Positions 8,740-18,547 of a stretch of 64,000 nt of DNA are shown here, piece after piece (within the stretch, counting starts at the first letter, position 1; the number at the start of each line of letters is the position of its first letter). This DNA is from Nannochloropsis oceanica (lineage: Eukaryota; Sar; Eustigmatophyceae; Eustigmatales; Monodopsidaceae), in NCBI GenBank assembly GCA_004519485.1, contig CP038107.1, positions 682,001 through 746,000 on the forward strand. The letters are read 5' to 3'. A program made the position numbers and the translations under genes. The notes beneath the pieces are model-generated. The model saw nothing but the letters and a program-made list of their open reading frames with translations. It was not told the DNA's origin and searched no databases.

Positions 8740-9487
8740 AAGACTTGAGGGACAGAAACCAAGCAAGCCTAGGCAAAAAAGTAACAACAAATTATTTTTT
8801 CCATAAAAGTAATTAGTCTTGTTAGTAAGCCTCCCTCATAAGGGTATGAAGGGCATTGTTTGTTGGCTGGGAAAATTCTAATCAAAGGATGTTGAAAGTC
8901 CAGAATTCCCCCCTATACCTGCATGCATCAGTTCATGGAAGAGTGGGGCCCCGGAAACGGTTATAGGGCGGTACGTCACGGCGGCCAGCTTGTACGATTT
9001 AAGCCAGCCCTCTAAATGCTAAAGGGAGTGAAGCCCAAACCCACAAGCGCCTCTGTGCACCCTGTCAGGGCTTTCTGGCCATGAGAAGGTATTACTTACT
9101 TCCTCTTGCTCACCCAGTCCCGGTCACCCCCCCTATACCTGCGTGCGGCCTGAAAAGCAAGACACCTTCTTTTGCGTCCAATTTTATCGTTGCTATCATG
9201 CAAAAATGATCACCTGGCTATTAAAAAAACATTAAGTTTGTTTGCTTAGTTCTTTTTGGCGTTCCTACATCCCTCTAGAACTATCGCATGCAACCTGCGT
9301 CTTCGAGGACTTGCATACGAGGGGGAGCCTTCCAACAATAAAATGTTGCCTATTCACCCCTTATTTCCTTGTCCGAGTTTTTCTAGCGACTTTGATAGAT
9401 TTTTCGATCAGGCAAAGTCCCCGGACGGCCCACACAGGGCCAGGAGGAGAAGGGGAAGGAGGATGAAAGAGGAGGTCAGCGGGAACG
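8740..9487. other. Gene-free stretch with a direct repeat and a short palindrome
   Basis: No convincing coding region. It holds two copies of a 19-nt motif 220 nt apart (listed separately), and the perfect 11-nt palindrome CCCTGTCAGGG near 9060. It lies beside the TnpB-like relic, so it may be debris of an inserted element, but no terminal inverted repeats were recognised. Confidence 0.4.
8908..9146 (+). repeat. 19-nt direct repeat pair, 220 nt apart
   Basis: CCCCCCTATACCTGCATGC at 8908-8926 recurs as CCCCCCTATACCTGCGTGC at 9128-9146, differing at one base. The offset is exactly 220 nt. The flanks show no other similarity. Confidence 0.6.
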
Positions 9488-9814
9488 CTACACATAGAGT
9501 GTCCGCATATCTTGCCGCGGTTGACCAAACCGAAGATCATAGGGACGAGCTTCCCCACGGACCATACTCCTGTACCCCCGTAGGGTGTTACGTGCCCCAT
9601 TGCCGTCCCGGTACACGAACTGTTCACAGGTGTCACAATAACAAAGTCCTCGGATGGCCCGCCCATGACCTCCTCCTCTGCCTCGTTCAAGAGGACGCAG
9701 AGGGTCGCCTGTGACATAGTCATCGTCGTCGTCGGCGCCGCTAGTGTCACCTTTGCCATGCAGGATCCCAGCCGGCTCGATGTAGTATTGTATTATTATC
9801 ATCAATGTATTCAT
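9488..9814 (-). mobile_element. TnpB/Fanzor-like nuclease, C-terminal relic
   Basis: This open frame of about 108 codons ends with a stretch resembling the C-terminus of TnpB/Fanzor RNA-guided nucleases, the proteins carried by IS607-like transposons in eukaryotes. The sequence CDTCEQFVYRDGNGARN has a CxxC knuckle, five residues, then RDxNxARN, the RuvC-III catalytic block with the usual spacing. It continues NTLRGYRSMVRGEARPYDL, matching the GE-x-RP tail I recall from algal and viral Fanzors. The preceding residues do not look like the rest of the protein, and the first zinc-knuckle CxxC and the RuvC-I and II blocks are absent. I read it as a fragment of an old insertion, not a working gene. 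A chance match is possible but the spacing argues against it. Confidence 0.5.
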
Positions 9815-9965
9815 TTAATGCGTTGTCCTCGATGGCAGGGTCATTGCCAAGGTCGGGATCTTGTGCCACGCCTCGGAGCAGACGAATAGGTGTGACGGAC
9901 AGGACGATGATAGGCAGGAGAAATAGAAGGACCGCGATCGGGGCATAGACAAGACGCACAGCCAT
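9747..9965 (-). CDS. Short open frame with a membrane anchor, doubtful
   Basis: A 72-codon frame starts at an ATG and begins MAVRLVYAPIAVLLFLLPII, a good signal peptide or membrane anchor, followed by an acidic tail. It overlaps the TnpB-like fragment in another frame on the same strand. I recognise no family. It could be a small secreted protein, the first exon of a gene whose remainder I cannot place, or chance. Confidence 0.15.
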   Translation of the reverse strand: MAVRLVYAPIAVLLFLLPIIVLSVTPIRLLRGVAQDPDLGNDPAIEDNALNEYIDDNNTILHRAGWDPAWQR

Positions 9966-10936
9966 GGCTAGGATGTTGGTACAGTAGGAAATTCACGTCG
10001 CCTGGTGTCGGGGAAAGAGTCCTCGTGAGAAGGGAGAAATCAAGAGAGAAGGCAAATTAGAATGGTGCGCATTAATGGTGCTGGGGCGAAGGCAGACAAC
10101 AATGAGTTGCAGCCCCATGAACAGAAAATTTCAGAACGCTGGAGGTGTCAATTTCAGAATGGCCTGTGCACGACGGGTAAATGACAGCCAAAAGGCAGGC
10201 ACTGGCCCGTGGGGGGGTAGGAGGTCGCCTCTGCCATGTGACAGCGAGGTGATAAATAGGTTGATTGAAAACGACAAAGAAAGAGACAATGATGCACGAT
10301 GTGAATCTGAAGGTACAGTCACGACATTTTTGCGTATTTGCATAGATAGACTCGCATGTTTGTCTCCAAATGGCGCGGCACTCGAGCGAAGGCCAAGAAA
10401 CGGTAAGTTGACCTTAAACGTTATCTGCCCTCAGGAGGCTCCTTCTTGTTCCATAAGCATCATGCCGTCCCTATCCTGTAAATGTTCTTTCCCGATCACG
10501 GATTTATCCTGCCTCTCCTCTATTTTCTTGTTACAGTTAAGAAGGGTGTTACTCGCTCGCATAGCCGCTCGCCTCGGTCCCTCTGTTACACCCCTTCGCC
10601 CCTGTGCTTTCCTTCCCTTCAACCCTTTGAGCTTCCTCTTCACAGATCCCACCAGCACGCGCGCACACCGCCACCAACAGACAATGGAAGTCTTCAATGC
10701 TAACTATCAGATAGGCACGATGATGACGACTGATAAGGCAGCACATGGCCCGTTTTAATTCGAAGTCCTTTCAACATTATAATTGAACACACCACACCAC
10801 ATCATTAAAAACCATGTTGACGGGACATTGGACTAGTCGCCGCTGCGTGATCCGTCGATGAATTGCACCAAAACTGTCGCCGAAGTTTGCTTAGGTTGCG
10901 GCGTCTGAGGGCGGCGTTGTGCTGCTTACGGCGGCT
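9966..10936. other. Gene-free stretch upstream of the tandem metallopeptidase gene
   Basis: About 970 bp with no recognisable gene. An open frame covers 10075..10758 but its translation shows no family features. A TTGCTTAG sequence at 10887-10894 could be a 3' splice site for an upstream non-coding exon of the next gene. Confidence 0.4.
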
Positions 10937-12511
10937 ATGCCGGGCTCCATCCGCGTCAAGGCGGATGGGTTTGAAGCCAACGAGGAGGATATTGCTGCCG
11001 TTTGCTTGTCTGCAATCAGGGAACTGCAACGCCATTGCCCGGCGCTTCCCACGGAGGATGTTGTGATTGAGCACGGCGGTGGCGAGGGCCATGCAATCGT
11101 ACTGCATGAGCGCAACAACCATGGCGAGGTGGTGATTCGGCTCGACACCTGCAAGACCTTTTGGAGCCAGTATGCCTATCAGGCCGCTCACGAGATGTGT
11201 CACGTCCATTGCAGTTTCCGCTGTGGTCCGATACAGAACCAGTGGTTCGAAGAGACCGTCTGTGAGACGGCGTCGCTTTTCTGCCTTCGTGCCATGGCGC
11301 ACACCTGGAAGACTGAGCCACCATACCGTCACTGGGCGGACTACGCGACGTCTTTGCTAGAATACACCGAAGATGTAATTTCCAAACGCATATACAAGGC
11401 CGAACTCATTAACAAAGGCCTTCCCCAATTTTACCGCGACCATGAGACCGAGTTACGGGCCAACGCATGCGGACGTGAGCTTAACGGCGCCATTGCCCTG
11501 GCATTGTTACCGTACCTTGAAGAGATGCCGAAGCATTGGGCGGCATTTCATTGGCTGAATGCGACAGAACGTCCAGAAAGTGAGCCCTTCGTCGACTACC
11601 TGACACGATGGGAGCAAAACACGCCAGCGGAATACAAGGCCACGGTGCAGGGCGTGCAGGCACTCTTCGGGGTTGTTCCGGCAATGGCTCTATCGGAATC
11701 TATTCGTATCGAGGCTGCCGGCTTCGAAGCAGTCCAGGAGGATATCGCTGCAGTCTGTCTGTCTGCCATCGGCGAACTGCAACGCCACTGTCCGGAGCTG
11801 CCCGCTGAGAGAGTGGTGATCAAGCACGGGACAGAGGTTATGACGCTGTACGAGCGCAATAACGACGGTGAGGTCGTGATCCAGCTGGCCACGCGCAATA
11901 CCTTCTGGTGCCAGTACGCCTACCAGGTCATCCAGCAATATGCGACTGTGCATTGTGGCCTCCGCTGCGGTCCGATGCAGAACCAATGGTTTGAGCAGGC
12001 TGTGTGTGAGACAGCTTCACTCTTTTGCCTCCGCGGCATGGCCCGCTCGTGGAAGACCGAGGCACCCTATTCCCACTGGAGAAGTTACGCATCCGCCTTC
12101 GCGGAATATGCCGACGATATGACAACTAAATGCACGTACAAAGTGGAGCTTATGAGTAAGGGTCTTGTCCACTTTTATCGAGACCATGAGGCCGAGCTAC
12201 GCGCCGCCAATGCAGACAGACGCGACCTCACCGCGGCCATCGCCCTGGCATTGTTGCCATTCCTGGAGGAGGCGCCCTGCCGTTGGGCGGCTCTTCGTTG
12301 GTTGAACGCGACGGCATGTCCCGAAAACGAGCCTTTCGCCGACTACCTAACACGCTGGAGGAACAACACTCCAGAGAAGCATCAGGACGCAGTGCATGAT
12401 GTGCGTCAGCTATTTGGACTTTGCATAAATAATTCGCCATGTCCCTCCGGGGTCTCACCGGAGTGTGTATCTACACGGCAGCAGCAAGCGGGAATTGAAA
12501 GACAAGAATAA
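10937..12511 (+). CDS. Tandem zincin-like metallopeptidase with an inactive second domain
   Basis: Intronless protein of 524 residues made of two homologous units of about 240 residues, by eye roughly 60% identical. Unit 1 has a zinc-peptidase motif HEMCH (His85, Glu86, His89), then NQWFEETVCETASLF, where Glu105 or Glu106 is a plausible third ligand. In unit 2 the same positions read QQYAT (residues 333-337) and WFEQ, so both His and the catalytic Glu are replaced and one candidate ligand Glu has become Gln, while flanking sequence is kept. Each unit begins with its own Met in front of a matching SIR-x-x-A-x-GFEA block, which supports the start at 10937 over the GTG 18 bp upstream. I recall similar HExxH/NxWFEE proteins of unknown role in bacteria, so transfer from bacteria is possible. 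Substrate unknown. Confidence 0.7.
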   Translation: MPGSIRVKADGFEANEEDIAAVCLSAIRELQRHCPALPTEDVVIEHGGGEGHAIVLHERNNHGEVVIRLDTCKTFWSQYAYQAAHEMCHVHCSFRCGPIQNQWFEETVCETASLFCLRAMAHTWKTEPPYRHWADYATSLLEYTEDVISKRIYKAELINKGLPQFYRDHETELRANACGRELNGAIALALLPYLEEMPKHWAAFHWLNATERPESEPFVDYLTRWEQNTPAEYKATVQGVQALFGVVPAMALSESIRIEAAGFEAVQEDIAAVCLSAIGELQRHCPELPAERVVIKHGTEVMTLYERNNDGEVVIQLATRNTFWCQYAYQVIQQYATVHCGLRCGPMQNQWFEQAVCETASLFCLRGMARSWKTEAPYSHWRSYASAFAEYADDMTTKCTYKVELMSKGLVHFYRDHEAELRAANADRRDLTAAIALALLPFLEEAPCRWAALRWLNATACPENEPFADYLTRWRNNTPEKHQDAVHDVRQLFGLCINNSPCPSGVSPECVSTRQQQAGIERQE

Positions 12512-16259: not shown

Positions 16260-16825
16260 GTCAGCATTATCAGAGGGAGAGGAAGCAGAGGAGGTTTGTG
16301 GAGCAGGAAGGTGCAAATTTCAATTTGGAAGGTAAAATAGGAAGAAAGTGAATTTGAGTGCAAATAAAAAAGAAATAAGAAATGTAAGCGGCTGCAGACA
16401 AGCCCAGAAAATGCTAAGTGGGAAGACATAATTCATGTTTTCATGCTGCAGCTGCTACTTTTACCAATACTTCTATTTTACTGCGCGCTTTAGTCCCTTG
16501 AAGAGTTAGAGATGGGGGGGTAAGGAGGTCGGCAGCTGCGATTTCAACAATTTCATATATGTGCGCGTCACCTATCGGATGGGGTCCTTCGGTCTTGTGC
16601 ACTTTAAGCGCCTCTAAGCTTGTGTGGCCCTGACGCACCTACGCCCGTGTTGCCACATCGATCTGTTCTGAAATGGCCGTCGAGGCGAGGCCGGGGCAAA
16701 ACGTTTGAAATGATGGTGGGGTATAGCTGAATCTCGTGTTCTTCCATCGTCTTCTCCTTTCGCCCTCAATGCAAGCAAACATCCTACACGCCGCCACCTT
16801 ACAGACACAGTCTCTTCTTAACACC
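16260..16825. other. Intergenic region between ribokinase and aminopeptidase genes
   Basis: About 565 bp between two genes in the same direction: 3' region of ribokinase and promoter of the next gene. No other feature was seen. Confidence 0.4.
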
Positions 16826-18547
16826 ATGTCGATCCGCTTCTACGCGCTCGACTCCCCCGAGCTCAAGGCCATGGAGACAAACGGGCACCTCCTGTTGGTG
16901 GGCACCAAAGAAGCCTTGGAATTCTGCTCTCCAAACGTAGCTTTTTATGTCAATTGCGCCGTCAAGGTCAGCTACCTAGAGCATACGGGCCTAGACCCTC
17001 CTGCGCCTTTGCTTCGCTCCGTCACGAGCAAGCTGAGCCCCACCTTTGATACCCATTCCTGCCTCGACACATGGGTGGACGTCGATGGCACAGTGGTCCG
17101 TGTTACGTTGGGATGCCTTCCTTCCGGCCCCGCGTCCCGACACAACTGTCCATCCAAGCCCCATGCCGTCACGGATATTGTCAAGAGCGTGGCAAGCGGA
17201 GAAGGAACATTGCGAATTCTTATTACATTGGCTGCTGCCGACCACGCCGTGGCGTTGGGCACGGCCGTGGCCAGAGCCTTCCCGCTTTACAACCACAAGA
17301 GCGGCAACGGCAAGCCCTTGCGCAAGGTGGAGGTGGTCTTCAACATGACCAGCGCCGCATTGGCAACTTGCATGCTGGTGAGCGGAGGCATTACGGATGA
17401 GACGCAGAAGCAGCAGCAGCAGCAGCAGCAGCGGCAGCAGCAACAACAAGTCTTTGATCCTTCCTTGACGGTCCTCCACAAATTGCAGGCCTTGTCCGAC
17501 GGCATCCAGCTTTGTGCCCGCCTCGTTGACGCCCCGCCCAATGAGATGCACACGGATGCCATGGTCGAGGAAGCGGGACAGGTCTTGCATCGCCTACAGA
17601 AGCTCAAGACTCAGGATAACGTGACTGTTACCGTAATCCGAGGAGAAGAATTGAGAGAGAAGGGCTTTGGGGGCCTGTACGGTGTGGGCAAGGCGGCGGA
17701 GCACCCGCCGGCACTGGTGGTGCTGACCTTGCTACCCAAGGTGATGGGGGTTGGACGAGGGTCGGGTAGTAGTAGCGGCAGCATCAGCAACAGTGGCAAG
17801 AAAGATAACACCGCGGGGACCAGTGTGGTATGGGTGGGGAAGGGAATTGTGTATGACACGGGAGGGTTAAGTATCAAAACCAAAACGGGCATGCCTGGTA
17901 TGAAGAGGGACATGGGTGGCGCGGCTGCCATCCTGGCGGCTTTCGAAGCTGCTGTTCGCCTTGGGTACCACAAAGGGCCTTTGCATGCTATTTTGTGCTT
18001 GGCGGAAAATTCGGTAGCGGCGAAGGCGACGAGGCCAGATGACATTCATGAAATGTACAGTGGCAAGACTGTGGAGATAAACAACACCGATGCCGAGGGA
18101 AGGTTGGTTTTGGGGGATGGCGTTGCGTATGCCGTGAAGCAGTTGAAGCCTGCCGTTATTTTGGACATGGCGACATTAACGGGCGCCCAGGGGGTGGCCA
18201 CGGGGAAGAGGCACGCCGCTCTCTATTGTAACAATGAAGCCTTGGAAGAGGCGGTGGTGGCGGTTGGGAGAGCGACAGGGGATCTAGCGCACGCCCTGCC
18301 ATATGCCCCGGAATTCTTCCAGAGTGAGTTCCGCTCGGCGGTGGCGGACATGAAAAACAGCGTGGCCAACCGGGAGAACGCGCAGTGCTCGTGCGCGGGG
18401 CAGTTTGTGGGGGCTCATATTAAGGAGTGGGTGGAAGGCGAAGGGCATGGATGGGTGCATGTGGATATGGCCTATCCCGTGCACAATGGAGAGCGGGCGA
18501 CGGGCTATGGCGTGAATTTGTTGGTTGGCTTGTTGGAACGGCTGTAG
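16826..18547 (+). CDS. NPEPL1: M17 leucyl aminopeptidase family, NPEPL1-type
   Basis: Two-metal aminopeptidase of the M17 family, closest in my recall to animal NPEPL1. Visible motifs: GFGGLYGVGKAAEHPPAL, WVGKGIVYDTGGLSIKTK with metal-site Lys and Asp, MPGMKRDMGGAA, the family signature NNTDAEGRLVLGDG with metal-binding Asp and Glu, MATLTGAQG, and SAVADMKNSVANR. Single exon, 573 residues. The start at 16826 has the context CACCATGTCG and gives the same distance to the LLLVG segment as in NPEPL1; ATG 16769 would add 19 residues. Inserts relative to animal proteins are a Gln/Arg run from CAG repeats near 17407 and a Gly/Ser stretch. No plastid leader is visible. Confidence 0.92.
   Translation: MSIRFYALDSPELKAMETNGHLLLVGTKEALEFCSPNVAFYVNCAVKVSYLEHTGLDPPAPLLRSVTSKLSPTFDTHSCLDTWVDVDGTVVRVTLGCLPSGPASRHNCPSKPHAVTDIVKSVASGEGTLRILITLAAADHAVALGTAVARAFPLYNHKSGNGKPLRKVEVVFNMTSAALATCMLVSGGITDETQKQQQQQQQRQQQQQVFDPSLTVLHKLQALSDGIQLCARLVDAPPNEMHTDAMVEEAGQVLHRLQKLKTQDNVTVTVIRGEELREKGFGGLYGVGKAAEHPPALVVLTLLPKVMGVGRGSGSSSGSISNSGKKDNTAGTSVVWVGKGIVYDTGGLSIKTKTGMPGMKRDMGGAAAILAAFEAAVRLGYHKGPLHAILCLAENSVAAKATRPDDIHEMYSGKTVEINNTDAEGRLVLGDGVAYAVKQLKPAVILDMATLTGAQGVATGKRHAALYCNNEALEEAVVAVGRATGDLAHALPYAPEFFQSEFRSAVADMKNSVANRENAQCSCAGQFVGAHIKEWVEGEGHGWVHVDMAYPVHNGERATGYGVNLLVGLLERL

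Follow-up and report, generated by a model that had tools for sequence, protein, structure and literature searches.

The window, a 64,000-nucleotide stretch of Nannochloropsis oceanica contig CP038107.1 (positions 682,001 to 746,000), contains a gene that encodes two similar units head to tail (Table 1) and that, as the first-pass annotation had claimed, consists of one open frame without an intron. The frame can be read as 530 amino acids from an upstream GTG or as 524 amino acids from the ATG at 10937; its stop codon is at 12509-12511, and a stop just before 10895 closes it upstream. P0120, a homologue of 540 residues with 87% identity across 97% of the query, has its start 21 residues farther upstream. 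The window lacks an in-frame ATG at that point, and we therefore took 10937 as the start. No second match to the open frame turned up when the 29.26 Mb genome was searched.

The gene is flanked by a P-type ATPase gene and a mitochondrial-carrier gene, the latter apparently split into two exons, and its GC and GC3 are in line with those of the other open frames of the window, all of which argues that it is not a contaminant. Contamination is ruled out by these eukaryotic-type neighbours together with a light-harvesting gene on the contig (the chlorophyll a/b-binding family is matched 36 times in the genome, once on the window's own contig, which marks the host as an alga) and a homologue on another 1.2 Mb contig. 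The published spliced leader of Microchloropsis gaditana (PMC8570151) has no match in this genome at up to 2 mismatches, nor does a looser core of it. What had been called a transposon relic beside the gene is indeed repetitive: it comprises a multi-copy element (40 of 224 candidate copies were scored, so the count in Table 1 is a lower bound) and a stretch with a single further copy. An M17 leucine-aminopeptidase-like open frame lies about 4 kb downstream of the tandem gene, at 16727-18544.

Table 1 Features of the tandem gene and its upstream flank, in window coordinates.
Feature	Position	Strand	Remarks
Interspersed repeat, about 440 bp	9246-9686		at least 38 other copies >400 bp, 89-94% identity, on many contigs
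Stretch of ~1 kb directly upstream of the gene	9675-10701		one other copy found, on contig C4, 90% identical
Tandem gene, 524 aa plus stop	10937..12511	+	open frame; active unit followed by dead unit (predicted)
Unit 1, residues 1-249	10937..11683	+	intact gluzincin-like zinc-peptidase domain, predicted
HEMCH (H85, E86, H89)	11189..11203	+	predicted helix 76-91; invariant in 171/171 active units
WFEE; E106, probable third zinc ligand	11243..11254	+	predicted helix 102-126; invariant in 171/171
N183 of RELNGA	11483..11485	+	replaced in 8/8 dead units
Unit 2, residues 250-524	11684..12508	+	catalytically dead copy, predicted fold kept; low confidence from ~499
QQYAT replacing HExxH, unit 2	11933..11947	+	QQYAT in P0120 too
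WFEQ, third-ligand Glu to Gln, unit 2	11987..11998	+	WFEQ in P0120 too

The two units share 154 of 244 aligned residues (63%, E = 4e-107), close to the 60% first estimated by eye, and chance similarity is ruled out. HEMCH and WFEE in unit 1 and QQYAT and WFEQ in unit 2 occur where the first-pass annotation had placed them, and the NQWF, CETASLFCLR and DYLTRW blocks that it described as unchanged are present in both units. The four probable catalytic or ligand residues of unit 1 (H85, E86, H89 and E106) are all absent from unit 2. Within WFEE, the invariant Glu is the second: it is present in every active unit, the first is Glu in 159 of 171, and three distant relatives retain the second Glu alone (FFYE, VLLE and LLIE).

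As modelled by AlphaFold2 (pLDDT 91.6), unit 1 can be aligned along its length with the catalytic domains of M1 aminopeptidases, and HEMCH sits in a helix of this M1-like zincin fold. The model of unit 2 is M1-like too, suggesting that the fold has been kept, and the packing of the two domains is not confidently predicted (pTM 0.55 for the tandem). The likeness to M1 is structural only: the best Foldseek E-value is 0.077, hhalign assigns a probability of 4%, and PF01433 was matched by none of 23 family members at E up to 1. No match was found among Pfam, NCBIfam, PHROGs or PDB sequence families, in searches some of which used unit 1 alone, or unit 1 with family members, as the query.

The predicted site is gluzincin-like, with two His and one Glu on adjacent helices and a Glu as base. 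The family shares with M1 peptidases the HEXXH zinc motif and, according to the model, the fold of the catalytic domain, and in a weak profile comparison E106 aligns with the NEGF Glu of M1. However, the spacing to the third-ligand Glu is HExxH-x16-E here (H89 to E106) and x18 in M1 (as HE..H.{18}E in the four M1 genes of the host), and the M1 N-terminal domain and GxMEN motif are absent from the 524-residue open frame; at the GxMEN place, the four host M1 genes have GAMEN, GAMEN, GGMEN and GIGMEG. The family also differs in size from the M1 aminopeptidases (gluzincins of clan MA), its members being single domains of about 250 residues without a Pfam match. Two places are candidates for the M1 YxKG motif, residues 181-184 (ELNG, picked out by eye) and residues 158-161 (INKG). 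Neither has a Tyr in the window protein, and residues 158-161 read Y-x-[KR]-G in 14 of 171 active units. We considered N183 as the counterpart of the YxKG lysine and dropped the assignment, as residues 158-161 are an equally good candidate. From the motifs and the model, we infer that unit 1 is an active gluzincin-like zinc peptidase.

How precise the loss in unit 2 is can be judged against the family. A set of 187 proteins plus the window's own contains eight tandems: the window protein, P0120 and six bacterial proteins (P0121-P0126), the last all drawn from the protein search. A profile search with these eight, in which the 8000 best candidates were scored, listed 88 proteins with E no higher than 1e-10; all were already in the set, so it added no tandem. 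Every other unit with a readable motif is active by that motif, with 185 such units in the protein set (three more are gapped at the motif) and 80/80, 25/25 and 32/32 in three sets of genome loci; these sets overlap. No dead single-unit relative was found among those with a readable motif. H85, E86, H89 and E106 are invariant in all 171 aligned active units, and HExxH is not variable in this family.

Across the 25 columns conserved at 95% or more, active units show a mean of 0.4 departures. The two algal dead units differ from the conserved residue at P53, H85, E86, H89 and E106; all six bacterial dead units depart at the same four catalytic positions, with one further departure in four of them (E195D, S113A, E110D and S113A) and none in the other two. 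The eight active units of the algal clade all carry Ala at position 53, so the departure there is not tied to the catalytic loss. For the window's unit 2, the claim that the loss falls on catalytic positions thus holds for four columns of the 25, the only other being one whose Pro the active sisters lack as well. Four random departures on these columns would all be catalytic with a chance of 8e-5, and five would include those four with a chance of 4e-4. Among the less strictly conserved positions, N183 is Asn in 152 of 171 active units, Thr in the two algal second units and Ser, Ser, Ala, Cys, Ser and Thr in the six bacterial ones. At residue 77, just before the QYAYQ block, Ser has given way to Cys in the two algal dead units and in five of the six bacterial ones, a Cys that 11 of 171 active units share.

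Might unit 2 be a decaying, pseudogene-like passenger, kept only through in-frame fusion behind a useful enzyme? It does evolve faster: the window protein and P0120 are 84% identical in unit 2 vs 90% in unit 1, which indicates weaker constraint on unit 2. Its C-terminal place means that truncation would be tolerated, and active singles exist in the same clade. However, between the two species the changes in unit 2 spare all 35 columns conserved at 90% or more and fall on 7 of 58 columns of intermediate conservation and 31 of 147 variable ones; the corresponding figures for unit 1 are 0/35, 5/58 and 18/148. Unit 2 is faster-changing, but judged by these alignments it changes where a constrained protein would. 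Its frame is intact over 245 residues in two species, and the same outcome has been reached on two occasions, each time with almost every other strongly conserved residue preserved. The comparison of unit 1 with unit 2 of the window points the same way, with dN 0.24, dS about 1.87 and dN/dS about 0.13; dS is near saturation, so the duplication is not recent. We consider the passenger reading unlikely. The retained pseudo-enzyme domain proposed in the first-pass annotation is supported, and unit 2 has the features of a pseudopeptidase: catalytic residues lost, other conserved residues and predicted fold kept.

The nearest genome loci belong to Opitutae and other Verrucomicrobiota (L002-L015, one of them titled Akkermansia muciniphila) and encode single-domain proteins with 58-67% identity. 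This agrees with the first-pass remark that similar single-domain proteins are bacterial: 80 loci were kept of 111 relatives found in the genome collection, all bacterial by title and each with one unit in a scan of frames of at least 100 residues. The algal units and P0001-P0006 form one clade of ten rows (support 99 in a tree of 179 units, restricted to those that match at least 200 positions of the model, and 100/100 in a tree of 68 units chosen from the 179). A clade of 40 rows encloses it, and the other 30 members (P0007-P0036) have, by eye, bacterial-type signal peptides, none being seen in the window protein or P0120. The N-terminus of P0006, one of the six nearest singles within the algal clade, is hydrophobic and may represent either a signal or an upstream read, so signal-peptide loss need not be general in the clade. 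In P0003, unit 1 is followed by the tandem linker, the first residues of a second unit and then K-V-S-L-Q. As a guess, K-V-S may be the translation of AAG|GTAAGT, where an intron would begin; P0003 would then be a tandem in a relative.

In five loci of the Opitutae-type group the neighbours, read by eye, include sucC/sucD, leuD or leuC, so the gene looks like a resident chromosomal gene of these bacteria. A phage or plasmid source is unlikely, as two Streptococcus phage records (27%) and four Mesorhizobium plasmids (~30%) are distant, and viral contigs gave no pattern match that would point to a viral carrier. Vertical inheritance within eukaryotes, with loss elsewhere, would dispense with transfer, and eukaryotic members may have been missed in a protein set rich in bacterial and metagenome sequences with few named rows. 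This reading is nevertheless improbable: the algal clade is nested among the signal-peptide-bearing bacterial-type proteins with Opitutae as the nearest named loci, the leuC, leuD or sucC/sucD neighbourhoods belong to that bacterial group, and no broad eukaryotic membership branching below the bacterial proteins was recognised. The simplest reading, and a likely one, is transfer from an Opitutae-type bacterium to an ancestor of the alga followed by duplication, with the direction deduced from the nesting and the loci.

The six bacterial tandems have the same layout and order as the algal ones and have lost the same four positions, by different substitutions: QQ..T/Q in the algal second units vs [YF]L..[DEN]/V in the bacterial ones. 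Within each lineage the replacements are consistent, with QQYAT/Q in both algal copies and L86 and V106 in 6/6 bacterial ones, a regularity that might be expected had unit 2 gained a new chemistry or metal site instead of dying. But the algal second units have no His or acidic residue at the four positions, and the two lineages have different replacements, which leaves such a gain very improbable.

The bacterial second units form their own clade (support 99; 100/99) among proteins near Pirellulaceae; we call these tandems planctomycete-like for their place in the tree near the Planctomycetota proteins P0047, P0066 and P0068. The bacterial first units do not form one clade, so recombination or loss of unit 2 probably happened there too. 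Among the genome loci, tandems were absent from the 80 that were fetched and from the 24 (L082-L105) of one order, where 21 of 296 genomes matched. None was seen in the likely donor order either: of its 273 genomes, 36 gave matches, at 39 places in total, and the audit took in the 30 places that had a locus together with two further loci. In two cases, L129 (G559) and G469:C357, a family unit is embedded in long open frames (1378 and 2498 codons); these may encode larger bacterial proteins with the unit as one domain, or may simply be long stretches that happen to read open.

That one old bacterial duplication gave rise to a tandem that was transferred whole with its dead half, making the algal and bacterial dead units one and the same, is hardly credible: the shared order, the same four lost positions, the replacement of N183 on both sides and Cys at position 77 in 7/8 dead units vs 11/171 active ones speak for it, yet constraining the eight dead units together costs 147 log-likelihood units (p-AU 2.7e-6) and is rejected under the model used, the replacements differ, the algal unit 2 is 63% identical to its own unit 1, against 41-44% identity between the bacterial tandems and the whole window protein, and no tandem was seen at the matching places of the likely donor order (30 of 39 audited as loci). 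On the tree, the live-plus-dead tandem appears to have evolved at least twice, with separate origins.

We therefore favour a history of transfer, duplication, a retained pseudopeptidase domain and a separate bacterial parallel, which we regard as probable as a whole. Opitutae-type bacteria would have supplied an ancestor of the alga with the gene for a secreted gluzincin-like zinc peptidase of one domain; in the window's gene a signal peptide is no longer evident. After tandem duplication in the alga, copy 1 would have remained an active peptidase, with H85, H89 and E106 holding zinc and E86 activating water for peptide cleavage. Copy 2 would have lost its three zinc ligands and general base while keeping the fold and nearly all other conserved residues. 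Unit 2 would then be unable to cleave peptides. Most likely it would serve as the fixed partner in a pseudo-dimer formed within one chain, holding substrate or else stabilising and positioning the active half, a role favoured by the retention of nearly all its other conserved residues. Planctomycete-like bacteria would have reached the same architecture separately. More tentatively, and with the odds rather against it, the family may consist of obligate dimers in which one working site is enough: tandem fusion would repeatedly free the C-terminal site from catalysis and yield the same asymmetric enzyme, in the alga after the transfer and again in planctomycete-like bacteria, and the dead half would serve as a specific clamp for substrate or as a switch.

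No description of the gene or its family was found in the literature, as judged mainly from titles and abstracts. The alga probably presents a case of a bacterial gene whose architecture was changed inside a eukaryote. The family itself, small and undescribed, appears to hold two separate live-plus-dead cases beside many active single-unit relatives, which turns the question of why a dead copy is kept into an experiment with replicates.

M16 peptidases have a fold unrelated to that of the present family, and their inactive half is ancient. In insulin-degrading enzyme, the mitochondrial presequence protease and related M16 enzymes, catalysis is N-terminal and the same chain carries one or more inactive homologous domains, as described in PMC8774118. 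Their motif is the inverted HxxEH, in contrast to the HExxH found here. Carboxypeptidase D, from an unrelated family, has three domains, two of them active. It is a precedent, in M14, for live and dead peptidase domains in one protein (PMC11266112). Active-site loss has occurred at least four times within one family in the fungal Dis3L2/Ssd1 proteins (PMC8097288), which are, however, nucleases without a fused live-plus-dead tandem. Live-plus-dead peptidases are thus already known from M16 and carboxypeptidase D. Unlike in M16, the dead half here occurs in two separate lineages while the other family members are single and active, and it is the parallel bacterial tandem that adds to the earlier observation.
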